64,000 bases of DNA from Streptomyces sp. NBC_01217. Lineage in GTDB: Bacteria; Actinomycetota; Actinomycetes; Streptomycetales; Streptomycetaceae. The stretch covers positions 6,115,501-6,179,500 of the forward strand of contig NZ_CP108538.1 in assembly GCF_035994185.1 (NCBI RefSeq), written 5' to 3'. The position numbers and the translations under genes were made by a program. The notes below the pieces were generated by a model. That model did no database searches, was not told the DNA's origin, and saw only the letters and a list, made by a program, of their open reading frames with translations. This document shows, in pieces, positions 36,938-47,766 of this stretch; the first letter of the stretch is position 1; every line of letters starts with the position of its first letter.

Positions 36938-36980
36938 GTGCCCCCGGCAGGATTCGAACCTGCGCACACGGCTCCGGAGG
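36938..36980 (-). repeat. Left att repeat: 3' half of tRNA-Arg(CCG)
   Basis: 43 bp identical to 47694-47736. It covers the anticodon loop, T arm and acceptor 3' strand of tRNA-Arg but lacks the 5' half, so it cannot fold into a tRNA. It marks the chromosome-island junction. Confidence 0.9.
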
Positions 36981-37049
36981 GCCCTTCGGACTATGCCGTA
37001 GGCGCAGGTCATCGTGCTTCTGCGATCCAACTAGGCAGTGTCCTGGCGA

Positions 37050-37466
37050 TCATGAGCGGAGCCAGATGACGAGTGCGGCTGCGGTGACGGTGCCGAGGTA
37101 GACGTAGCCGCGCTTGTCGAACCTGGTCGCAACCGCGCGGAAGGTCTTCAGCCTGTTGATCGCCCGTTCGACGGTGTTGCGCTTCTTGTAGCGGTCCCTG
37201 TCGAAACCGGGCGGCCGACCCCCGGCGCTGCCGCGTCGGACCCGGTTGGCGGCCTGGTCGGCCTTCTCCGGGATGACATGCCGGATTCCTCGTCTGCGCA
37301 GGTAGCGGCGGGTTCGGCGGTTGCTGTAGCCCTTGTCGGCGCTGACGCTGTCCGGCTTCGTACTAGGCCTGCCGCTGGTCAACCTCGGCACACGGATCTT
37401 GTCCATGACCGGCTCGAACTGGGTGCAGTCGGCACACTGCCCGGGCGTGATGACCAGCGAGAGCAC
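37050..37466 (-). CDS. IS5-family transposase, C-terminal frame
   Basis: 138 aa counted from the first Met-type codon; the frame stays open upstream to overlap frame A. It contains SADKGYSNRRTRRYLRRRGI with the second catalytic Asp and KRNTVERAINRLKTFRAVATR with the catalytic Glu. Together with frame A this completes the DDE triad, so the element may be functional. Confidence 0.85.
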   Translation of the reverse strand: MLSLVITPGQCADCTQFEPVMDKIRVPRLTSGRPSTKPDSVSADKGYSNRRTRRYLRRRGIRHVIPEKADQAANRVRRGSAGGRPPGFDRDRYKKRNTVERAINRLKTFRAVATRFDKRGYVYLGTVTAAALVIWLRS

Positions 37467-37486
37467 CCGGCAACGGCCGTCCGCAC

Positions 37487-37978
37487 TCAGGTGGATCTTG
37501 GTGGTGAACCCGCCGCGCGAGCGGCCGAGCGCCTCACCTCCCGCACTACCCCCGCCAGCCGGTTGATCAGTTCCGCCCGGATCCGAGCGGCTTTGACCGC
37601 CCGGCCAAAGCCCCCTTTGAGGACGGGCGGCGGAGCGTGCCGGGCGCCGGCGGCGTGGTGGTGGGCGCGCACGGACGTCGAGTCGACCGAGACGTTCCAG
37701 TCGATCTCGCCGGCCGCGTCCGCCTCAGCCTGGACCCGCCGCAGGAGCATTTCCCACGTTCCGTCCGCCGACCAGCGGCGATGGCGCTCGTGCACCGTCT
37801 TCCACGGTCCGTATTGTTCCGGCAAATCGCGCCACTGCACGCCCGTGCGTATCTGGAAAAGCACCCCGTTCACGACCTGGCGATGGTCCCGCCACCTGCC
37901 GCAACGCCCATTGCTCACCGGCAGGAGCGGCTCCAGCCGCTCCCACTGGGCATCTGTCAGATCACTCCTACTCCCCAT
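37487..37978 (-). CDS. IS5-family transposase, N-terminal frame
   Basis: 163-aa frame A. It begins MGSRSDLTDAQWERLEPLLP and carries VFFQIRTGVQWRDLP-like and SVDSTSVRAHHHAAG regions (first catalytic Asp in DSTSVRA). It ends when the reading frame shifts near 37500-37560. The next frame reads GEALGRSRGGFTTKIHLSAD directly across the overlap, the expected continuation in this family, so a ribosomal frameshift would give full-length transposase. Confidence 0.85.
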   Translation of the reverse strand: MGSRSDLTDAQWERLEPLLPVSNGRCGRWRDHRQVVNGVLFQIRTGVQWRDLPEQYGPWKTVHERHRRWSADGTWEMLLRRVQAEADAAGEIDWNVSVDSTSVRAHHHAAGARHAPPPVLKGGFGRAVKAARIRAELINRLAGVVREVRRSAARAAGSPPRST

Positions 37979-38090
37979 AGTCACATCAACGACTGACTGA
38001 CCGTCGGGATGTCGTCCAGCCCCCGGCGATGCTCGGTGCTGACCGCTGAATACGGTGGAGGGGCCCGGCTGAATGAGAGGACGCGAAGAC

Positions 38091-38756
38091 GTGGATGTGT
38101 ATGAGGCCGTGGACAGCCGCCGGGCTGTACGGGCGTTCAGCGATGAGCCGGTGCCCAAGGAGGTCCTCGAACGGGTGCTGACCGCAGCAACGCGGGCTCC
38201 GTCCAGCGGGAACCTCCAGCCGTGGCGCATGTATGTCGTGAGCGGGGAACCCTTGGCCGAACTGAAGAAGTGCGCGACGGCCAGGTCACTGGCGGGAGAC
38301 CCGGGTGATGAGCGGGAGTATCCGATGTACCCGGACGAACTGACCTCGCCGTATCTGGACCGCTTCTCCGCTGCGGCGGCTCAGCGATACGAAGCGCTGG
38401 GGATTGAGCGCGACGACCCCGACCGGCCCCAGAAGATCGCTACCTTGAACTCGGAGGCGTTCGGGGCGCCGGTCGTCTTGTTCTGCTACCTCGACCGGAC
38501 GATGGGGCCCGGGCAGTGGGGTGACGCGGGGATGTACCTGCAGACGGTCATGCTGTTGCTGAGGGCGGAAGGATTGCACAGCTGCCCCCAGGTGATGTGG
38601 ACCATGTGCCGCAAGACCGTCAGCCGAATAGTCGGAGCCGATGACGAGCTTGTGCTGTTCTGTGGCATTTCAGTGGGATTTGAGAAGGAAGGCGTACCAA
38701 GGCTGCGTACCGGGCGGGCGGACATGACGGAAACGGTGAGCTTCATCGGAGTGTGA
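38091..38756 (+). CDS. Nitroreductase-family flavoprotein
   Basis: 221-aa FMN-dependent nitroreductase-type oxidoreductase. Signature parts: SRRAVRAFSDEPVPKEVLER (FMN phosphate contacts), TRAPSSGNLQPWRMYVV, and QTVMLLLRAEGLHSCPQVMW. It would reduce nitro compounds, quinones or flavins with NAD(P)H. GTG 38091 is chosen because GAGAGG lies 10 nt upstream; ATG 38073 is also in frame. It lies in the island between two transposase loci and is cargo of unknown role. Confidence 0.88.
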   Translation: MDVYEAVDSRRAVRAFSDEPVPKEVLERVLTAATRAPSSGNLQPWRMYVVSGEPLAELKKCATARSLAGDPGDEREYPMYPDELTSPYLDRFSAAAAQRYEALGIERDDPDRPQKIATLNSEAFGAPVVLFCYLDRTMGPGQWGDAGMYLQTVMLLLRAEGLHSCPQVMWTMCRKTVSRIVGADDELVLFCGISVGFEKEGVPRLRTGRADMTETVSFIGV

Positions 38757-38841
38757 CCGCTGACGGCCGAGATCGACAGGACAGGGCCAAGGGCTGTCCC
38801 GCAACTGCTCCTCATCTCCAGTGGGAGACAGCCCGCAGCGG

Positions 38842-39222
38842 TCAGCAGAAGATGAGCTCGACTTCCTTCTCCATGCAGTACTTCATGACGGTGACCAGTT
38901 GGCGCACGTCGTCGATGTGTCGCTCAAGGACATGGCCACCGTCCTCGTGTTGCTGCTGGTTGGTGATTGCTTCCAGTCTGGGCAGCATGGCCGCGCATTG
39001 AACGGGCGCGAGAGAGCCGTCGTCGTCTGGATGGTCGAGTAGTGGTGCCAGCGTGGTGGAGACGCTGCTCCACATGCGGTCTCCACCGAATCCGTTCATC
39101 TCCGCAAGGGTGAATCCCTCTGCCTGGGCCAGCCACTCCCTGAACATGTTGAAGCCGCTATAGGACCAGGAGACGTCTGGGCTGGTCACGTCGTCGCCTC
39201 CGGGGGAGAGCATGAGCCCCAC
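38842..39222 (-). CDS. Conserved hypothetical protein
   Basis: 126 aa, starting ATG 39222. It reads SPDVSWSYSGFNMFREWLAQ, then MNGFGGDRMWSSVSTTLAPL, then PPVQCAAMLPRL-type helices, ending KEVELIFC. Similar proteins occur in Streptomyces, often in accessory regions. No catalytic motif, signal peptide or membrane segment is seen. GGAGGAAC lies upstream but far from the ATG. Confidence 0.65.
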   Translation of the reverse strand: MGLMLSPGGDDVTSPDVSWSYSGFNMFREWLAQAEGFTLAEMNGFGGDRMWSSVSTTLAPLLDHPDDDGSLAPVQCAAMLPRLEAITNQQQHEDGGHVLERHIDDVRQLVTVMKYCMEKEVELIFC

Positions 39223-39297
39223 TCTGTTCCTCCTTGCTTGCCCGGTGCTCAGGATCGGCCGCGGGGAGACGTGTCGGCAACTGAAATGATCTGCCGT

Positions 39298-40341
39298 ATG
39301 GCTGGTGTGATCACGGCGTCGGAGCCCTCGTGGATAGCCCCGTTCACCGGGCTGAGCCCGCGCGCCTTCGGGAAGCTGATGACGGTTTTGCGGCGCGAGG
39401 GCGCGGACGCGGTCCGCAAGGGTCGGCCGTGGGGCCTGCCGCTGGAGGACCGGGCACTGCTGGTCGCGGCGTACTGGCGCACGAACCTAACGATGCGCCA
39501 GCTGGCCCCGCGGTTCGGGGTCTCCAAGTCATTGGCGGACCGCATCATCGACCACCTCGGGCCGATGCTCGCGCTCCAGCCCCGCAAGCGGTTCGCCAAG
39601 GCCACCGTGCTCATCGTGGACGGCACTCTGGTCCCCACCCGCGACCACACCATCGCCGCGCAGTCGAAGAACTACCGGTACTCCACCAACCACCAGATCG
39701 TCATCGATGCCGACACTCGGCTCGTCGTCGTGGTCGGCCGACCGCTGCCCGGGAACCGCAACGACTGCAAGGCGTGGGATGAATCCGGCGCCAAGGCCGC
39801 AGTCGGCAGGACACTCACGATCGCCGACGGCGGCTACCTTGAGGAGAAAGAAGCCGAGGAGAAGAAGCCCTACGACTTGGAGGGGGATCCGCTCTTCCGC
39901 GTCAGGGCGTACGAGGCGGCAAAAGATCTCGCCGATAGGAACCCTTTAACATTTACTCCGTCAGGACCTGAGCAGTTCCCTGAATTCATTCAGGCCATCA
40001 TCGGAACCTTCCAGCATGCAATAGAAGAATCCGACTTGTGGATGCACTTGTGGCGCGACGATAGATTCGTCAGCGAGAGAGCTGTTCAAAGCCTTTTCAG
40101 GCATACAGTGTGGCACTACTGCCGAGCAGTAGGTGTCGACATGACAGCCGAGGCGAATGCTGGGAGAGGGCCCGTCGATTTCAAATTCGTGCAGAATTGG
40201 GAATCTCGGGCACTTCTGGAGATAAAGCTTGCATCCAATCCGTATTTCTGGCATGGCCTCACGAAGCAAACAGTTCAATACCTCAAGTCGGAAGGCATTA
40301 AGAGGATGTCTCACGTGGTGATCTTGGCGAGTCTCTTGTAG
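39298..40341 (+). pseudogene. Chimeric frame: truncated DDE transposase fused to nuclease-like gene
   Basis: The first 180 residues are a DDE_Tnp_4-type transposase (SPRAFGKLMTVLRREGADAV, RFGVSKSLADRIIDHLG, LIVDGTLVPTRDH, PGNRNDCKAWDESG, LTIADGGY). After ADGGY, near 39,840, the expected transposase C-terminus with the catalytic Glu is missing. The frame continues into an unrelated low-GC coding sequence (EKKPYDLEGDPLFRV). The final 12 residues come from the IS inserted at 40302. It is thus a deletion fusion read through into a second IS, not a real full-length gene. Confidence 0.8.
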
Positions 40342-40721
40342 CAGGTCAGGGCTGCGGCGAGGCCGAGGAAGGCGAGGAAGTGGCTGCCCTTTCGCTCATA
40401 CCGGACGGTGAGGCGGCGGTAGCCGAAGAGCCAGGAGATCGACCGCTCGATCTTCCACCGGTGTCGGCCGAGGCGCTCGCCGGACTCGATGCCGGGACGG
40501 GCGATGCGTGGGACGAGGTTCCGGGCGCGGAGCCAGCGCAGGTGTTCCGCGGAGTAGTACGCCTTGTCCGCGCGGATCTTCACGGGCCGTCTCCGACGGG
40601 GCCCGCGCCGGGAGCGGACGGCGGGTATGCCGAGGATCAGCGGCTTGAACGCCTGGCTGTCGTGCAGGTTCGCACCCGAGACCGCCACGGCCAGCGGCAG
40701 GCCCTGGGCCTCGGACAGCAC
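40311..40721 (-). CDS. IS5-family transposase, C-terminal frame (IS B)
   Basis: 136-aa frame: LAVAVSGANLHDSQAFKPLI, KIRADKAYYSAEHLRWLRAR (second Asp), HRWKIERSISWLFGYRRLTV (Glu). The reading frame is open upstream through GPNPVDRGKKGSKLHVLSEA to the slippery site, giving a complete DDE enzyme after frameshift. Confidence 0.88.
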   Translation of the reverse strand: MLSEAQGLPLAVAVSGANLHDSQAFKPLILGIPAVRSRRGPRRRRPVKIRADKAYYSAEHLRWLRARNLVPRIARPGIESGERLGRHRWKIERSISWLFGYRRLTVRYERKGSHFLAFLGLAAALTCYKRLAKITT

Positions 40722-40768
40722 GTGCAGTTTGCTGCCCTTCTTGCCGCGATCGACCGGATTCGGCCCGG

Positions 40769-41128
40769 TCAGCGAGCCCCCCTTTTCGCCCGCACCGACG
40801 CCGCATCGACGATCGCGGAGGTCCAGTCGAGCTCACCCCTGGCGCCGAGTTCATCCAGCACCGCCCGGTGCAATCGGCGCCACAACCCGGCCTCGGTCCA
40901 CGCGGTGAACCGGCGGTGCGCCGTCGCGGGCGATACCCCGAACGTCTCCGGCAGGTGCCGCCAGGCGCACCCGCTGGTCAGCACGTACACCACCGCCGTG
41001 AACACGGCCCGCTCGTTCAGCGGCGCAGTCCCACCGCCCTGCGGACGGGAGCTGAACGACGGCAACAACGGGGCGACGAGTTCCCACAGACCGTCAGGAA
41101 CCAGCCGCTGCGAAAGATCGGCACTCAC
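40769..41128 (-). CDS. IS5-family transposase, N-terminal frame (IS B)
   Basis: 119-aa frame A from GTG 41128: LVPDGLWELVAPLLPSFSSR, SGCAWRHLPETFGVSPATAH, WTSAIVDAASVRAKRG, with the first catalytic Asp in IVDAASVRAK. It ends just after the A4G6 slippery run, where a -1/+1 shift joins the next frame, as is usual in this group. Confidence 0.88.
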   Translation of the reverse strand: MSADLSQRLVPDGLWELVAPLLPSFSSRPQGGGTAPLNERAVFTAVVYVLTSGCAWRHLPETFGVSPATAHRRFTAWTEAGLWRRLHRAVLDELGARGELDWTSAIVDAASVRAKRGAR

Positions 41129-41232
41129 GAAGAGACATCATGCCGCAGCTCACACCATCACCACGTGAGACATCCTCTAAGCTTGGCTACTTCGTGTACG
41201 TGATTCATGCCGAGCGCCACGTGGAGCCTGAG

Positions 41233-42940
41233 CCCGGATCCACCGGCTGATGTTTCCGAGGTCCGATTTCTCGCCGAGGGCTGATGGTGGTGTGGGGCTT
41301 GGGTTCGAGGGCGGGCGGCGCCCGCCGCGCTCGGGTCGCGGCCTGTCCGAGGTGTTTTGCGAGTCGGGGCTGGGGCGGTGGTGCCGGTGGCCGGTGCGGC
41401 CGTCAGGGTGCGGTGTCGATGGAGGCCGTCAGGGTGTTGACGGTGGGTGATGGACGGCCTCGAACAAGTCCTGGTAGGCGGCCTGCCAGGGCCAGTTGGC
41501 GGGCAGGTGGGCGGTCAGCTTGGTCCTCGCGGTGCGGGCGAGTCGGGCGGGGACGTGGATCAGGTGGGCGCGGAGTGTGGCGGTGGTGGCCTTGGCGTGG
41601 AAGGCCGAGGCCAGGGCGCCGGCGGCCCGCAGCAGGTTGTGCGACATGGCCCACAGGATCAGCCAGGCGGCGTTCGCCTGGAAGTTTCCCGAGGGCAGGT
41701 GGGCGAGCGCGGAGGACTTCCCGTCCGCGATCGCCTGTTCCACGACAGCGTGTTGCCGGTGGTGCAGTTCGGCCTGAAGCATGCCGAAGGGGCTGTTGGT
41801 GAAGATGGGATGGTAGCGCCAGGAGTCGAACAACTCGCCCTGCCCGGTGGCTGCTTGCGGGTTCAGGCGTCGCACCCGTCGCACGATCAGACGGGCGGTG
41901 ACCTGCTCGGCCTTCTTGCGTCCGGTGAACGCGGTGTACTCGGTCTCGGCGACCTCGGCGTCGGAGACCATCTCGCCGGTGTCGGGATCCACGAACGCCT
42001 CGGGGTAGCGGATCGGGATCCAGGCGTCCTCGGTGATGCGGCCGATCGCGGCGGCGATGGAGGGGTTCATGCCCGTGGTGAGGGAGAAGTGGGCACCGGA
42101 CCTGTGGCAGGCGGCGGCCACATCGGCGGTGTAGAACTTGCTGTCCGCCCGCACCATCCGGATTCCGGTTCCGCCCGCGTCCTTCGCGATGGCCAGGGCC
42201 TGGGCGACGAAGCTTTTCGCGCCGCGGACGTCGGCGGCCTTGCCGCGGCGCAGGCGGACCGCACCGATCACCGGCCGGGCGAGCGGGGTGGACAGGGTGG
42301 CCATGATCGGGTGCAGGGTGCGCTGCCCCTTCAGGCGCCCGTGCTCGGCGCCTTGCTTGGCCCGTCCGTAGACCCGGCGGTGGGTGGGGTCGATGTCGAT
42401 GAACATCAGCTGCCCGGCGCCGGGCAGCAGCGGGGTACGGGTCGCGAGGCGGGCCAGGAATTCCCGGTGCACACGGTGGAGTTGCCGGTTGTGGCCGTGG
42501 GTGAAGGAGCGCAGGAAGGTGCCCAGCGTGGACGGGGCGCGTATCCCGGCGAAGGCCCGGTCCATTGCGCCGTGCCGCAGCCGGTCGGCATCATCGATGG
42601 AGTCGGCCCCCGAGCACATCGCGCCCAGCAGCGACAGCACCTTGGCCGCCGGATGGGCGCCGCCGCTGTTGTCGGCCGCCTCGATGCGGACCTGGGCGGC
42701 CAGACCGGGCAGGCCGACCCGTTCGGCGAGCGCGATCAGCGGAAGCAGCCCCGCATCCGCGATCAGATTCGGCTCGTCGAAGAGTGCGGAGACATGGACG
42801 GCGGCATGGGAAGATTGCATCTCGGAAGAGCCTTGTCATCGTGCGTGCTGGAAGCCTCAAGAACTCCCATCATCGCAGGTCACAAGGCTCTTCCTCGTTC
42901 CCGGAGAAGTTGTCCACAGAGGTCAGCCGGTGGATCCGGG
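41233..42940 (-). mobile_element. IS1380-family element (1708 bp)
   Basis: 18-bp perfect terminal inverted repeats CCCGGATCCACCGGCTGA (41233-41250 and complement at 42923-42940) are flanked by a 5-bp direct duplication CTGAG (41228-41232 and 42941-42945), matching the 4-5 bp known for the family. One transposase gene, apparently complete. Confidence 0.93.
41429..42820 (-). CDS. IS1380-family transposase
   Basis: 463-aa DDE transposase. Typical parts: DDADRLRHGAMDRAFAGIRA and PSTLGTFLRSFTHGHNRQLH near the N-terminus, LMFIDIDPTHRRVYGRAKQG with the first Asp, IRMVRADSKFYTADVAAACH with the second, and a C-terminal AELHHRQHAVVEQAI with the Glu. It is full length for the family and uninterrupted, so probably active. 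The long regions on both sides up to the terminal repeats hold no other gene. Confidence 0.93.
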   Translation of the reverse strand: MQSSHAAVHVSALFDEPNLIADAGLLPLIALAERVGLPGLAAQVRIEAADNSGGAHPAAKVLSLLGAMCSGADSIDDADRLRHGAMDRAFAGIRAPSTLGTFLRSFTHGHNRQLHRVHREFLARLATRTPLLPGAGQLMFIDIDPTHRRVYGRAKQGAEHGRLKGQRTLHPIMATLSTPLARPVIGAVRLRRGKAADVRGAKSFVAQALAIAKDAGGTGIRMVRADSKFYTADVAAACHRSGAHFSLTTGMNPSIAAAIGRITEDAWIPIRYPEAFVDPDTGEMVSDAEVAETEYTAFTGRKKAEQVTARLIVRRVRRLNPQAATGQGELFDSWRYHPIFTNSPFGMLQAELHHRQHAVVEQAIADGKSSALAHLPSGNFQANAAWLILWAMSHNLLRAAGALASAFHAKATTATLRAHLIHVPARLARTARTKLTAHLPANWPWQAAYQDLFEAVHHPPSTP

Positions 42941-43140
42941 CTGAGCTTACGGTCAGGGCGAAGCAGCTCGCGAAAGAAGTTTCGTCGCGCTTTGGACTCG
43001 ACGTCAGAACGTCCCAGATTGATGCCAGGAGGAAGCTCTCGGCTTCGAAGCTGAAGGAAGGCAAGGGGGAGGTTGTGGAGTCACCCGCTGCTGAACTCGA
43101 CCCTATAGAGGGGTTCGATGAAGAAACTGACTTGGAGTAG

Positions 43141-43818
43141 ATTCCAGATCTGGCCTTGCTACGGAGGGCCATTCGCCTCATTGGCAACGTGCTGGCGAGT
43201 GGCTCTGTTGTGTCAACTCGTAGGGTTTGTAAGCGGACAGCTGCAGATTCCTGCGACCCCATGAAGACACCGAACTACTACTGGCGGCCAGTGATCTCTC
43301 CGTTGACGCGGGACGCCCACCGGGTAGCATCGCGACGGTTGCCACCCAGCTTTACTGAACCGCGTCCGCCGCCGGCGCCAGGGGCCCGCGGATCATCCGT
43401 ACCCATCCGTGGCTAGAGCATGATTGCATCGGCAGGCTCGTCGACCACCGCCTTGTAAGTTCGCTCTATCTCGGCCTCGGCTGGGCCCAGCTGCGCGCAC
43501 GAGAGTCATCTACGGCCGCTCAAAGGTGCAGCTGTCGGTGGTCGTTGATGTCAGCGCTGGATGTCAGCCGAACAACTCCGGCACAGGGAAGATCTCCAAG
43601 GGCTCGTCCGGCCGATCCGCTCAGCTCCACCAGGGTGTGCCGACTGGCACACCCCCGCAGCGATCGGCACCTCCGCCGACCATCGTCCTCTCGCTTGGAG
43701 AGCACGAGGCCACCCGACTTCATGGGCTAGCCGCACCCAGGACAGGCCGGTACATCGCTGGTCATGCGCCGCACACTAACCCGAGCCCCCTCACCCCCCG
43801 GGGAGGCCCCAGACGTGA
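43141..43818. other. Gene-free stretch of the island
   Basis: No convincing gene is seen on either strand; the short frames lack homology patterns and ribosome sites. A perfect inverted repeat GGGTGTGCC-GACT-GGCACACCC lies at 43633-43654 and could be an operator or terminator. The stretch is probably decayed island DNA. Confidence 0.5.
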
Positions 43819-44136
43819 TCACCCAAGCGCCGTTCCTGACCCGTGCAGCCGAACTCTCACCTGGTGGTTGTGCTCAGCGTGCCCGATGACCTCACCGCGG
43901 ATGCGTGCCCCGAGAATGGGTAGTCCCATCCCCTCGGGCATGGCAATGATCTCGGCGAGCGCCACGGCGTTCGGAAGTCCGTCGACCCGGATGAAGATGC
44001 CGAAGGGCTGACGTCCGATCACCTCTCCCGCGACGGAGGCCCCCAGAGGGAGAACTGCAAGCGTCGCCGTCCAAACTTCCTCCGACGACTGCCCCGGCAC
44101 GTCGGGGCGGCGCGCTGGCCAGTTGTACTCGTCCAT
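43819..44136 (-). CDS. S1-like RNA-binding domain protein
   Basis: 105 aa. ATLAVLPLGASVAGEVIGRQ and PFGIFIRVDGLPNAVALAEI match an S1/OB-fold start (G-x-V-x-G-x-V, then PFGxFV), followed by RIRGEVIGHAEHNHQVRVRL. It probably binds RNA; no other domain is present. ATG 44136 is used. It is the last gene of a minus-strand group (DUF1152, HEAT-like fragment, S1). Functional role in the island is unknown. Confidence 0.75.
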   Translation of the reverse strand: MDEYNWPARRPDVPGQSSEEVWTATLAVLPLGASVAGEVIGRQPFGIFIRVDGLPNAVALAEIIAMPEGMGLPILGARIRGEVIGHAEHNHQVRVRLHGSGTALG

Positions 44137-44238
44137 AGGCAGATCATGACCTGCCGAGGAGCCCGCGACTACTGCGTTGTAAGGGCGGACGCGGTCGATC
44201 GCTGGGACGCCCAGGTCACTGCGGCTGTAGCGCCACCC

Positions 44239-44667
44239 CTACCCAACGAGGCATCTCGACTGCGGCGAGCCGTCGTTGACCATGGTTGACCGCACGATGT
44301 GGCATGACTGTGGCACGGAGCTCAGGCCGTCAACGGCCGCCATGAACATGTCGACTTCGAACTGAATTGCCACTTCACTCCGCTCCGGACGGGCAACCGG
44401 GGCTACGATATCCGGACGAGCCGCGACAAGACTCACAACAGGAACCGTCGCCTCGTAGATCGTGTTCTGGTGGTGGAGGATGCCGTGAACGTCGTCCAGC
44501 GCCTGCGTTCTTACGGCCTGATCTGCATCCGATAGCGCTACCAGGATCTTGGGCGCATCTGCGGCTCGTCCGTAGGCATGGTGCAGTCCTGTCCAGCTGG
44601 TTCGGGTGAGTGTCCACTCTGGGGCGGGCGGATCCGCGGTGGACGGGGGCTCGTGATCGTCTCTCAT
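44239..44667 (-). CDS. Truncated HEAT-protein relative
   Basis: 142 aa. Residues around WTGLHHAYGRAADAPKILVA and LDDVHGILHHQNTIYEATVP match the N-terminus of the 728-aa HEAT-repeat protein at 26444-28630 (WASMEHAYGPADDVPEML; LDGMYGAVHHQGDVYACTL). The remaining 600 residues are missing, and the end (RSTMVNDGSPQSRCLVG) looks random, so it may be a fragment. ATG 44667 overlaps the DUF1152 stop (ATGA), suggesting it is still co-translated. Confidence 0.6.
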   Translation of the reverse strand: MRDDHEPPSTADPPAPEWTLTRTSWTGLHHAYGRAADAPKILVALSDADQAVRTQALDDVHGILHHQNTIYEATVPVVSLVAARPDIVAPVARPERSEVAIQFEVDMFMAAVDGLSSVPQSCHIVRSTMVNDGSPQSRCLVG

Positions 44668-45749
44668 GCGATCCGCCACAAGGGTGCGTTGTACTGCTCC
44701 GGGCGGCTGCGAATGAGTAGCTGGCGCAGTTCGTCACGCTGTGAGCCGTTGAGGTTCAGGACCTCTGTGATGTGGCGGAACGTCGTGTGGGTGATTCCGC
44801 GGCCTCGGGCCTCGCTCTCGAACTCGTCGAGCCGGGACAGGACGGAGTCGCCGTCGAGCTTCACTGTCGGCCGGTCCTTGAGCCATGCGGCCTTGTTGCG
44901 CTCGTAGTCGATTTCCGAGTAACCGCAGACTTCTCGGCTGTGTGCCTCGACCTCGTCCAGGGTGGTGGTCGACAGGATGGCGCGGGCCAACTCGTTGCGG
45001 TTCAGTGCCTCGTCAAAGTCGACTTCATGGATTGTCGGGCTGTCGTCCGTGAGCGGAATAGGCAGGCCGGCGTCCCGCACCTCGCAGACGCCTCGCACTC
45101 CTCGCGCTGTTGCCGCGAGCATCCCAGTTGCCTCGGAGGGATGCCATTCCAGGATTGAGCCGACCAGCTCTGCGTCCCTCGCGGACAAGGTGTGGATGAG
45201 AGGACCGAGCAGACCGCGCACGTCGTCGAGCGGGAGTTCACCATCAAGGCTGGGGCCGGCGATCAGTAGCCGGATGGGCGCGCTCACCTCGCAGCACGCG
45301 GCCAGTGTCAGGGCATCTGCCAGCGGGCTCTTGAGCGTCGGCTCGTCACCTCGCGCGACGATGTCGCCGCCAACGTCCAGGAGGTCGATCGACGCCGGCT
45401 CCAAGTGGGCCACCAGCTCTTCGAGCTGGCATGTGATGCCCTTGGCGCCGTGGTACGGGTCGATCAGTGCGAAGGTGTGCGGGAGCTCTGCGGCGAGTCG
45501 GGGAAGGGCCGAGCCTGCTGGAGCGACCGGGCGGGCCTTGGACGGCACCGACCGGACAGATGGAGTGAGGGGTTCGAGGCCCGTGAAGTCAGACGGTCCT
45601 CTTGGCCCCGGTAGCGGGTCGACCAGCAGACGGTCCCACGCGTACGTGAGGATCACCGCCTGTTCCTCGTTGCCGTACAGGGCGGCGTGAAGCATTGCGG
45701 CGGCGACTGCGTCGCCCCCTCCTCCTGCCGCGACGATCAATCGCGTCAT
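44664..45749 (-). CDS. DUF1152-family protein
   Basis: 361 aa beginning MTRLIVAAGGGGDAVAAAML, a glycine-rich nucleotide-binding-like loop characteristic of DUF1152, and containing ASIDLLDVGGDIVARGDEP and TARGVRGVCEVRDAG. The function of the family is unknown; a sugar-isomerase or nucleotide-binding role is only suggested. The divergent gene is the GntR regulator, with an operator-like site between them, so it may be in the GntR regulon. Confidence 0.82.
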   Translation of the reverse strand: MTRLIVAAGGGGDAVAAAMLHAALYGNEEQAVILTYAWDRLLVDPLPGPRGPSDFTGLEPLTPSVRSVPSKARPVAPAGSALPRLAAELPHTFALIDPYHGAKGITCQLEELVAHLEPASIDLLDVGGDIVARGDEPTLKSPLADALTLAACCEVSAPIRLLIAGPSLDGELPLDDVRGLLGPLIHTLSARDAELVGSILEWHPSEATGMLAATARGVRGVCEVRDAGLPIPLTDDSPTIHEVDFDEALNRNELARAILSTTTLDEVEAHSREVCGYSEIDYERNKAAWLKDRPTVKLDGDSVLSRLDEFESEARGRGITHTTFRHITEVLNLNGSQRDELRQLLIRSRPEQYNAPLWRIA

Positions 45750-45788
45750 GTGCTCAACATTACGGGTTCGGCGTCTGACCGCTCACCC

Positions 45789-45817
45789 TATAGTGGCCAG
45801 AGGCTATAGCCACTTGG
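45789..45817. promoter_or_regulatory. GntR operator and promoter (site A)
   Basis: AGTGGC (45792-45797) and GCCACT (45809-45814) form an inverted repeat overlapping a -10-like TATAGT (45789-45794), 17 bp before the GntR start. The same half sites recur downstream at 46608-46648. Autoregulation by the GntR protein is inferred. Confidence 0.65.
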
Positions 45818-45830
45818 ACGAGGAGGGGAC

Positions 45831-46571
45831 ATGCCTCAGATCGAGGAGGCGCAGCCGAAGTATCTCCAGATCGCTCACTACATCCGCGATCAGATCCTTC
45901 GGGGCGACCTGAGGCCCGGGGACGAGGTGCCCTCGGAGCGGCAGTTGGCGGCGAACTGGAAGGTGTCCCGGCCGACGGCGGCACGGTCGCTGGAAGCGTT
46001 GAGCCACCAGGGGCTCGTCGAGAAGCGGCAGGGGTCGGGCACGTACGTACGGAGCCTCGAAGTCAACCGCCGGGCACGGGAGTTGTACGGGCGGGCTCGG
46101 CAGGTCGGGAAGATCTACACCCCTGGTGAGTACGCGGTGATCACCTCGGCCGGCTGGCTGGAGGCGCCGGAGTACGTAGCCGAGGCGCTGGGCCTGGTGA
46201 AGGATCGTCGGGCTGTGCACCGTCGGCGCGTGACCAGCAACCAGGACGGCCCCATCACCCTGTCCACCTCGTGGTTCGCCCCGGATGTCGGGCAACGGGC
46301 ATCCAAGCTTCTGGAGCCCGAGCGGATCCAGGAGGGCACCTTGATGTACGTCGAGAGCGTGACGGGACGGCAGGGGAGCTATGCCGAGGACCGTATGTGC
46401 GCTCGGCAGGCGACCGACGAGGAGGCAGCAGACCTTCAACTGGGGCCTGGATCTGCGGTCTTGATCGTGCACCATGTCGTGTTCGACCTCCAGGACCGGC
46501 CGTTGGAGTTCGCCGAAGCCACCTACCCGCCGCACCGCTGGGCGTTCGAGCAGGGCTATCCCCTCACCTGA
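45831..46571 (+). CDS. GntR-family (HutC/UTRA) regulator
   Basis: 246-aa transcription factor, KorSA/HutC-like, of the kind that controls transfer of actinobacterial integrative elements. The N-terminal winged helix is clear: KYLQIAHYIRDQILRGDLRP, GDEVPSERQLAANWKVSRPT and QGLVEKRQGSGTYVR. A UTRA ligand-binding domain follows (PITLSTSWFAPDVGQR ... PLEFAEATYPPHRWAFEQGY). GAGGAGGGG precedes the ATG. Inverted AGTGGC/GCCACT sites lie before it and before the next gene. It is probably a remnant of the element's own control circuit. Confidence 0.93.
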   Translation: MPQIEEAQPKYLQIAHYIRDQILRGDLRPGDEVPSERQLAANWKVSRPTAARSLEALSHQGLVEKRQGSGTYVRSLEVNRRARELYGRARQVGKIYTPGEYAVITSAGWLEAPEYVAEALGLVKDRRAVHRRRVTSNQDGPITLSTSWFAPDVGQRASKLLEPERIQEGTLMYVESVTGRQGSYAEDRMCARQATDEEAADLQLGPGSAVLIVHHVVFDLQDRPLEFAEATYPPHRWAFEQGYPLT

Positions 46572-46607
46572 TCGTTCGCCATTTCGGCGAACCGCTTGCG
46601 TGGCCCG

Positions 46608-46648
46608 AGTGGCCAATGCCACTATCCATTAAGTGGCTAAGGCCACTT
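46608..46648. promoter_or_regulatory. GntR operators (sites B and C)
   Basis: Site B AGTGGC-CAAT-GCCACT (46608-46623) and site C AAGTGGC-TAAG-GCCACTT (46631-46648) are perfect inverted repeats centred 24 bp apart, about two helical turns. They flank a possible -10 (TATCCATT) ahead of the ATP-binding gene. They share half sites with site A. Confidence 0.7.
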
Positions 46649-46772
46649 GGTCGGCGGCTGGATCAGCTCGCGCGCGGCCCTTGCGCTCTCCATCGCCAAC
46701 GACCGTGTCCGTGCCGCACCGAAACGGCGCTGCCTCGACTGCGACGGCAGCGGCAAGGAAGGAGTGAGCACT

Positions 46773-47210
46773 GTGGCCTACATGATCGACCGCTACCCCT
46801 GTGAGGGCTCACCGCGACTCGGCGCGATGACGTTGCACCCCTTAGCCGATTCGGTGGGGATGGCGCGGCGCTGGTTCCGGAAGCTCATCGCTCCGTACGA
46901 GGTTGCCTGCTCGGTCGACGACTGCGTACTGATGATCTCCGAGCTGGTGACCAACGCCATTGTCTATGGTCGGTCCGACGAGTCGTGGGTCGTGCGGGTG
47001 GAGTGGTTCCGGGAGGGGGCTTCCCTCCGCGTAGAGGTGCACAATCCTGGGTTCCCGGCGAACGTGCGGCTGCGGTGCCCCGATGCCGGTGACGCGCATG
47101 GGCGCGGACTGCTCCTCGTCGCTTCCATCGCCGACTCCTGGCACTCAGGGCCCAGTCGTCTCGGCGGGACGGTTGTTTCCTTCGTGATGGCTGATGCCTG
47201 GCCCGCATGA
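46773..47210 (+). CDS. Anti-sigma-factor-like ATP-binding protein
   Basis: 145-aa HATPase_c_2 (RsbW/SpoIIAB-like) protein. It has the N-box DDCVLMISELVTNAIVYGRS, then VRVEWFREGASLRVEVHNPG, and the G-box in HGRGLLLVASIADSWHS. Such proteins bind ATP and may kinase or sequester regulators; many Streptomyces copies lack a known partner. GTG 46773 is 8 nt after GGAG; GTG 46764 is possible. The region upstream reads RRCLDCDGSGKEG in frame, perhaps a remnant of a small CxxC protein. It is controlled by GntR sites B and C. Confidence 0.85.
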   Translation: MAYMIDRYPCEGSPRLGAMTLHPLADSVGMARRWFRKLIAPYEVACSVDDCVLMISELVTNAIVYGRSDESWVVRVEWFREGASLRVEVHNPGFPANVRLRCPDAGDAHGRGLLLVASIADSWHSGPSRLGGTVVSFVMADAWPA

Positions 47211-47305
47211 GGTCGGCGAAAGTCGGCCGAAGGTACTCTGCTGCCCATCTGTTCGATGAGCGGGCAGCCTTCGGGGGTTCTGCCCCTGTTCCCGTCGGAG
47301 GGGCC

Positions 47306-47587
47306 ATGGATCTGCTCACTTCGCTCGATGAAGCGGTGGCCGCCCTCAAGGAGCCGTTGAGGCAGCGCGACATCGCGGAGGGTTGGACCGACGATCTCCG
47401 GAGGGAGCTCCAGGAGGAGATCTCGATCAGCTGCTCGGTCCTGCGCCGTCATGGGCAGGGAATGGTGCGGCATTTGCGGCCTCGCCTGGACGAGTGGATG
47501 GAGCGTGAAGCGGTGCAGCCGGGACGTCTCCGGCATCTGGTCCTGGATGTGCAGCGACGGTTGGTGGATGCCCGCAGCGCCATCTGA
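47306..47587 (+). CDS. Small conserved protein near the island right end
   Basis: 93-aa helical, charged protein: MDLLTSLDEAVAALKEPLRQ, then LRRELQEEISISCSVLRRHG. No recognised domain. The ATG follows GGAGG; a longer frame from ATG 47207 overlaps the previous stop but has no ribosome site. It is the last gene before tRNA-Arg and is probably co-transcribed with the ATP-binding gene. Confidence 0.6.
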   Translation: MDLLTSLDEAVAALKEPLRQRDIAEGWTDDLRRELQEEISISCSVLRRHGQGMVRHLRPRLDEWMEREAVQPGRLRHLVLDVQRRLVDARSAI

Positions 47588-47637
47588 GGATGTCGCCCGA
47601 ACTGAACATCCGGGCGGCATGCGCCTGTACATACGCG

Positions 47638-47677
47638 AAGACCCCGACCTCAGCGTTTCCGCTGGAGACGGGGTCTT
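47638..47677. terminator. Hairpin downstream of tRNA-Arg
   Basis: AAGACCCCG (47638-47646) pairs with CGGGGTCTT (47669-47677), with an inner TCAGCG/CGCTGG stem. It is within the island just beyond the att site, and could stop both tRNA transcription (minus strand) and the 47306 gene. Confidence 0.65.
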
Positions 47678-47693
47678 GGGCACTTCCTGCGAA

Positions 47694-47736
47694 GTGCCCC
47701 CGGCAGGATTCGAACCTGCGCACACGGCTCCGGAGG
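47694..47736 (-). repeat. Right att repeat within tRNA-Arg
   Basis: 43 bp identical to 36938-36980. It is the 3' part of the intact tRNA gene plus one following base, and defines the right boundary of the island. Integration restored a complete tRNA. Confidence 0.9.
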
Positions 47737-47766
47737 CCGATGCTCTATCCCCTGAGCTACGGGGGC
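47695..47766 (-). tRNA. tRNA-Arg(CCG)
   Basis: The reverse strand folds as a complete tRNA: acceptor GCCCCCG/CGGGGGC with discriminator A, D arm GCTCAGGGGATAGAGC, anticodon arm TCGGC-CTCCGGA-GCCGT with anticodon CCG, and T arm GCAGG-TTCGAAT-CCTGC. CCA is not encoded. It is the integration site of the island. Confidence 0.97.

Follow-up and report, generated by a model that had tools for sequence, protein, structure and literature searches.

A shared N-terminal domain joined to a changing nuclease part is a pattern known among defence proteins. In Streptomyces, one published account describes integrative elements that stack at a tRNA-Arg gene, and actinomycete integrative and conjugative elements (AICEs) that decay and leave cargo and direct repeats behind (PMC9513070). 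The present study analysed a stretch of 64,000 nucleotides from Streptomyces sp. NBC_01217 (hereafter the window; positions 6115501-6179500 of an 8.89 Mb contig, in a 9.03 Mb genome of two contigs), in which a nuclease gene is interrupted by two insertion sequences (IS). With a probability of about 0.88, the locus is a pseudogene: the remnant of a nuclease gene, surviving as a 5'-truncated fusion with two IS insertions, on a decayed integrative element at tRNA-Arg(ccg). The copy in the window cannot make the protein of its nuclease family. The features on which this reading rests are collected in Table 1.

Table 1. Features of the interrupted nuclease locus and of the surrounding island (window coordinates).
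Feature	Coordinates	Strand	Details
Genomic island	36938..47736	.	10.8 kb; bounded by 43-bp direct repeats of the tRNA-Arg(ccg) 3' end (blastn; pattern search)
att-type repeat, distal copy	36938..36980	.	100% over 43 bp to 47694-47736
IS112-like (IS5 family) transposase fragment	39282..39838	+	about the first 180 of 256 codons; HTH_Tnp_4, DDE_Tnp_1; open reading frame opens at 39238
Nuclease piece 1	39835..40301	+	linker and PD-(D/E)XK motif (VDFKF, LLEIK, QTVQY); N-terminal half of gene absent
Fusion junction	39835..39838	+	TACC (at least TAC) assignable to either side
IS B, IS5-type	40302..41177	-	22-bp perfect inverted ends 40301-40322/41157-41178; TAA duplication 40299-40301/41178-41180
Nuclease piece 2	41181..41232	+	17 whole codons; 12/17 identical to P0011 residues 424-440
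IS1380-type element	41233..42940	-	intact transposase 41429-42820; CTGAG duplication 41228-41232/42941-42945
Nuclease piece 3	42946..43140	+	last strand, IDARRKLSASKLK end, stop; 58% to P0011 residues 441-499
GntR-UTRA regulator inside island	45831..46571	+	Pfam GntR, UTRA
tRNA-Arg(ccg), presumed island target gene	47694..47766	-	ARAGORN

The three nuclease pieces form a single frame down to the stop codon at 43138-43140, with no added stop or frameshift within them. Piece 1 is 84% identical, without gaps, to residues 268-422 of P0011, an intact homologue of 505 aa from Streptomyces sp. NPDC017638, and pieces 2 and 3, searched separately, also align to it gaplessly and in order, residue 423 being the codon split by IS B. 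Since P0011 is collinear across both junctions, one frame was interrupted twice. Piece 1 is gapless against other homologues too, and the six further homologues displayed keep the same order for pieces 2 and 3 at lower identity than P0011. Recovery of the frame is in itself unsurprising, because the original frame can be recovered after any insertion that duplicates its target cleanly; the informative point is that the pieces have accumulated no extra stop or frameshift. Their guanine-cytosine (GC) content is 53.8%, against 70.5-71.3% in the flanks.

Both interrupting elements have multiplied in the genome. The transposase of IS B consists of split IS5-type frames, and the copies shown comprise five near-full-length ones with a rounded identity of 100% and three with 89%; each of the eight is flanked by a 3-bp TNA duplication, TAA in the window, and seven of them occupy a TAA/TTA-type site. 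The second element encodes a transposase matching DDE_Tnp_1_4 (Pfam, 5e-32) and has ends of 18-bp identical inverted repeats with a 5-bp duplication; we take the name IS1380 to be tied to a DDE group 1 transposase, inverted ends and a short target duplication. Nine full-length copies of it, with a rounded identity of 100%, occur in the genome, and the 5-bp duplication is perfect in all eight examined, reading CTGAG in the window and three others and CTCAG, TTCAG or CTGAA in the rest. As a separate observation, an IS B-like element (291-1340, recognised by eye) ends just upstream of an intact nuclease gene at 1356 in a locus of Actinomadura rubrisoli (L024).

A third lesion lies upstream. The frame is open from 39238, and encodes transposase before 39835 and, in frame, nuclease after it. 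The segment 39282-39838 (557 bp) has 89-91% DNA identity to the plasmid IS112 copies listed, with 91% to a copy on an S. goshikiensis plasmid; intact relatives of this transposase have 256 codons, and the right end is absent from the window fragment. After GGCTACC the window passes into YLEEKE of the nuclease family, whereas in IS112 relatives, two partial copies from this genome among them, the transposase sequence runs on. Intact nuclease family members have 475-505 aa (the L022 protein and P0011, respectively), of which the window retains a C-terminal stretch of about 210 residues (L022 numbering, 266-475). No match to the missing N-terminal half, some 265 residues long, turned up in the genome, as the L022 protein, a family profile (A1) and P0011 each matched the window fragment only; its relocation elsewhere in the genome was rejected on the same three queries.

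The junction codon is TAC in five of seven homologue loci (L022 and L081 among them being probably one record) and TAT in one, while L024 gave no pattern match (Phe by eye); the full TACC is found in L026 only. The TAC, perhaps TACC, is thus a possible microhomology. A deletion, perhaps at this site, may have taken the 3' end of the transposase together with the 5' half of the nuclease gene, which would have left the remaining parts fused in frame, as they are seen today. IS B and the IS1380-type element, at a distance of 55 bp from each other, went into what remains of the gene, whether before or after the deletion.

These results revise part of the first-pass annotation of the locus, which had described a nuclease-like gene starting at 39850 and split by two nested IS, with in silico excision restoring its frame. 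The two elements, their ends, the TAA and CTGAG duplications, the D...ExK signature (VDFKF...LLEIK) and the joining of the pieces without a stop to 43140 are all borne out, the last by end-to-end alignment with an intact homologue that spans both junctions. The elements are neighbours, however, and not nested. Excision does restore the frame, but not a whole gene: the product is a truncated fusion, and 39850 is a position inside the frame that begins in the IS112-like transposase fragment. Since this position is internal and the N-terminal half is unmatched in the genome, the locus is a truncated fusion interrupted twice.

The catalytic residues of the surviving domain are conserved, with D380, E394 and K396 present in 50 of 50 homologues and the D...(D/E)xK residues retained in piece 1. 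A model of an intact homologue (predicted local distance difference test score, pLDDT, 87.1) shows an alpha-beta core fold, and its nearest structures are restriction endonucleases, the best matches being of the BamHI/BstYI kind over residues ~308-472; these families were taken from Foldseek's own matches, so that families outside that list are not thereby excluded. A sequence search of PDB, with one protein or the A1 profile, returned nothing significant. Motif and modelled fold support the C-terminal domain as a PD-(D/E)XK nuclease predicted to cleave DNA, in line with the first-pass reading.

The setting of the locus is that of a mobile element. The 43-bp repeat that bounds the island is expected zero times by chance (pattern search), and GC content is 65.9% inside the island versus 71.3% and 70.5% outside. 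Its genes comprise an IS5-type transposase, a nitroreductase, the fusion with its two IS, a DUF1152 protein, the GntR-UTRA regulator and a HATPase_c_2 protein. Neither an integrase nor a TraB/FtsK-type transfer gene was found by Pfam among 13 island open reading frames (ORFs), a set that leaves aside short gene fragments and a few ORFs that are small or antisense; for this reason the island is called a remnant and not an AICE. When the left flank and repeat were searched in 41 genomes (own included), all 41 gave matches, many of them to the repeat alone, and at least nine (G004, G006, G007, G009, G014, G016, G021, G024 and G401) carried at least two copies on one contig within ~65 kb. By analogy with decayed Streptomyces elements, the island is best read as the remnant of an integrative element that decayed at tRNA-Arg. 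The nuclease family member probably entered as cargo of such an element at tRNA-Arg(ccg), which would then have decayed, as the repeats and the integrase not found suggest.

Two further observations concern the island. Just inside the left repeat, the IS5-type transposase frame (37050-38230, with DUF4096 in 37487-38230) overlaps the start of the nitroreductase gene at 38073 on the opposite strand. The segment 44664-47183 (DUF1152, regulator and ATP-binding genes) has a DNA relative at 74.5%, in two pieces, on a 27 kb plasmid of S. angustmyceticus.

The intact family is large and modular. At least 1497 relatives were found at E up to 0.001, and the 120 listed all share one pair of precomputed Pfam domains, PF28130 and PF28123. 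Neither these nor the PADLOC candidate PDC-M36 is mentioned in the literature searched; NCBIfam holds no matching family up to E 1, and a Pfam scan (with a library apparently lacking PF28123) gave a chance-level match only. The PADLOC model PDC-M36A matches intact homologues at 1.1e-29, 4.8e-28 and 3.1e-30. PHROG 30194 matches the L022 protein over residues 8-473 (E 9.3e-54), and the INPHARED phage records hold no tblastn match to the same protein.

When 392 Streptomyces genomes were searched with a profile, at most four candidates being scored per genome, the family was located at 13 places in 12 genomes (own included): three full-length members, the window fragment, eight places where only the N-terminal part (~1-225) is present and one where only the C-terminal part is. 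In seven of the eight N-terminal-only members, an E-(C/L)-K motif was recognised by eye in the differing C-terminal part, with Pfam support in two (Mrr_cat above the cut-off, PDDEXK_3 just below); the motif is missing from L066 (342 aa). Among plasmids, 23 records match, four of them covering at least 80% of P0011 and many others the N-terminal part only. This distribution suggests that one N-terminal module is joined to interchangeable nucleases. At one locus (L062:7686-11103), two genes with the family's N-terminal domain are convergent and 58 bp apart; their C-termini differ, and both show an E-C-K motif by eye. A neighbour of the intact L022 homologue (L022:6272-8095, 607 aa) ends in an RxxxxH sequence, RSKLVH, that by eye may be HEPN-like; the protein has no match in Pfam, PADLOC or NCBIfam.

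The neighbourhoods of family members include defence genes, with ThsA-like and ShosA-like genes within ~3 kb of the L026 member and an NsnA-like gene ~3 kb from the L025 member. The 110 ORFs neighbouring the 13 loci matched 35 PADLOC families at E up to 1e-10, those listed including ThsA, ThsB, ShosA, NsnA and AriA; the PDC-M36 partner name was absent from the families listed (25 of the 35). Control ORFs (95, from 10 arbitrary stretches in ten of the same genomes) matched 61 families, among them DISARM DrmA, MzaA and dGTPase, in a comparison where five control stretches lay on the homologue's own contig, ORFs were called by a GC-based caller and dropped below 120 aa, and counts were pooled. 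Since the control stretches also yield defence models, the neighbour test does not discriminate, and no enrichment is claimed. A defence role of the family, at which the first-pass annotation had hinted, is plausible. Intact relatives would most likely be DNA-cutting defence effectors, in which the N-terminal domain may gate or recruit a swappable nuclease. We tentatively propose, at somewhat less than even odds, that intact members are modular anti-phage nucleases of an uncharacterised kind, combining a conserved N-terminal sensor or gate with interchangeable PD-(D/E)XK cutters and spread as cargo of integrative elements, and that the window holds its fossil.

Three other accounts of the broken frame were weighed. 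That it is a chance open frame and no gene remnant draws on nothing beyond the gene being broken, and is rejected as having practically no probability given that piece 1 is 84% identical to an intact protein of 505 aa and that pieces 2 and 3 follow in order. The fusion, with its helix-turn-helix (HTH), partial DDE and full nuclease domain, might instead once have worked as a domesticated protein that both IS later killed: it is in frame, its nuclease domain and catalytic residues are preserved, and 39238-40301 is free of stops. In-frame joining nevertheless has a one-in-three chance of arising, and all 120 relatives listed (of at least 1497, with the unfused family as query) have the same two Pfam domains and no transposase domain, which leaves this history very improbable.

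A small chance remains with selection against the gene, in which toxicity of the nuclease, or its conflict with another element, would have favoured transposon hits; the first-pass annotation had likewise suggested that a doubly hit gene may have been costly, or else have become dispensable. Three lesions do fall within or at ~700 bp of remaining gene. Once the gene was truncated, however, further hits would be neutral, and both IS families are multiplied in the genome. Target sites also bear on the matter: TAA/TTA occurs 13.0 times per kb in piece 1 versus 0.9 in the flanks (5.1 in piece 3 and 0 in piece 2), and IS B used such sites in seven of its eight copies. CTNAG, the usual IS1380-type site, shows no clear enrichment, which weakens the argument from site richness: piece 1 has 2.17 per kb and piece 3 has 0, compared with 1.27 and 0.86 in the flanks, and the single CTNAG of piece 2 is the one at which the element inserted. 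Multiplied IS families together with relaxed selection after truncation suffice for the double hit, so that cost, while possible, need not be invoked.

The locus itself is thus ordinary decay on a mobile element; the intact family, uncharacterised and unnamed, is moderately interesting, and the locus is useful as a pointer to this large group, in which the N-terminal domain is shared and the nuclease part varies. Compared with the decayed Streptomyces AICEs described in the source, it shares direct repeats (here the tRNA-Arg 3' end), cargo left in place and lost mobility genes, and differs in strain and cargo, in its extra IS load and in an AICE origin that is presumed (PMC9513070). With PADLOC PDC-M36A (PDLC04597/PDLC04598), an unpublished defence candidate, it has in common that intact relatives match the model over residues 2-288, a part the window copy does not have, and no partner gene was identified. 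With the PD-(D/E)XK nucleases of BamHI/BstYI type, finally, the family shares the motif, the strand order and the best structural matches, but it differs in its ~11% identity to them, in having no known recognition site or methylase and in possessing a separate N-terminal domain.
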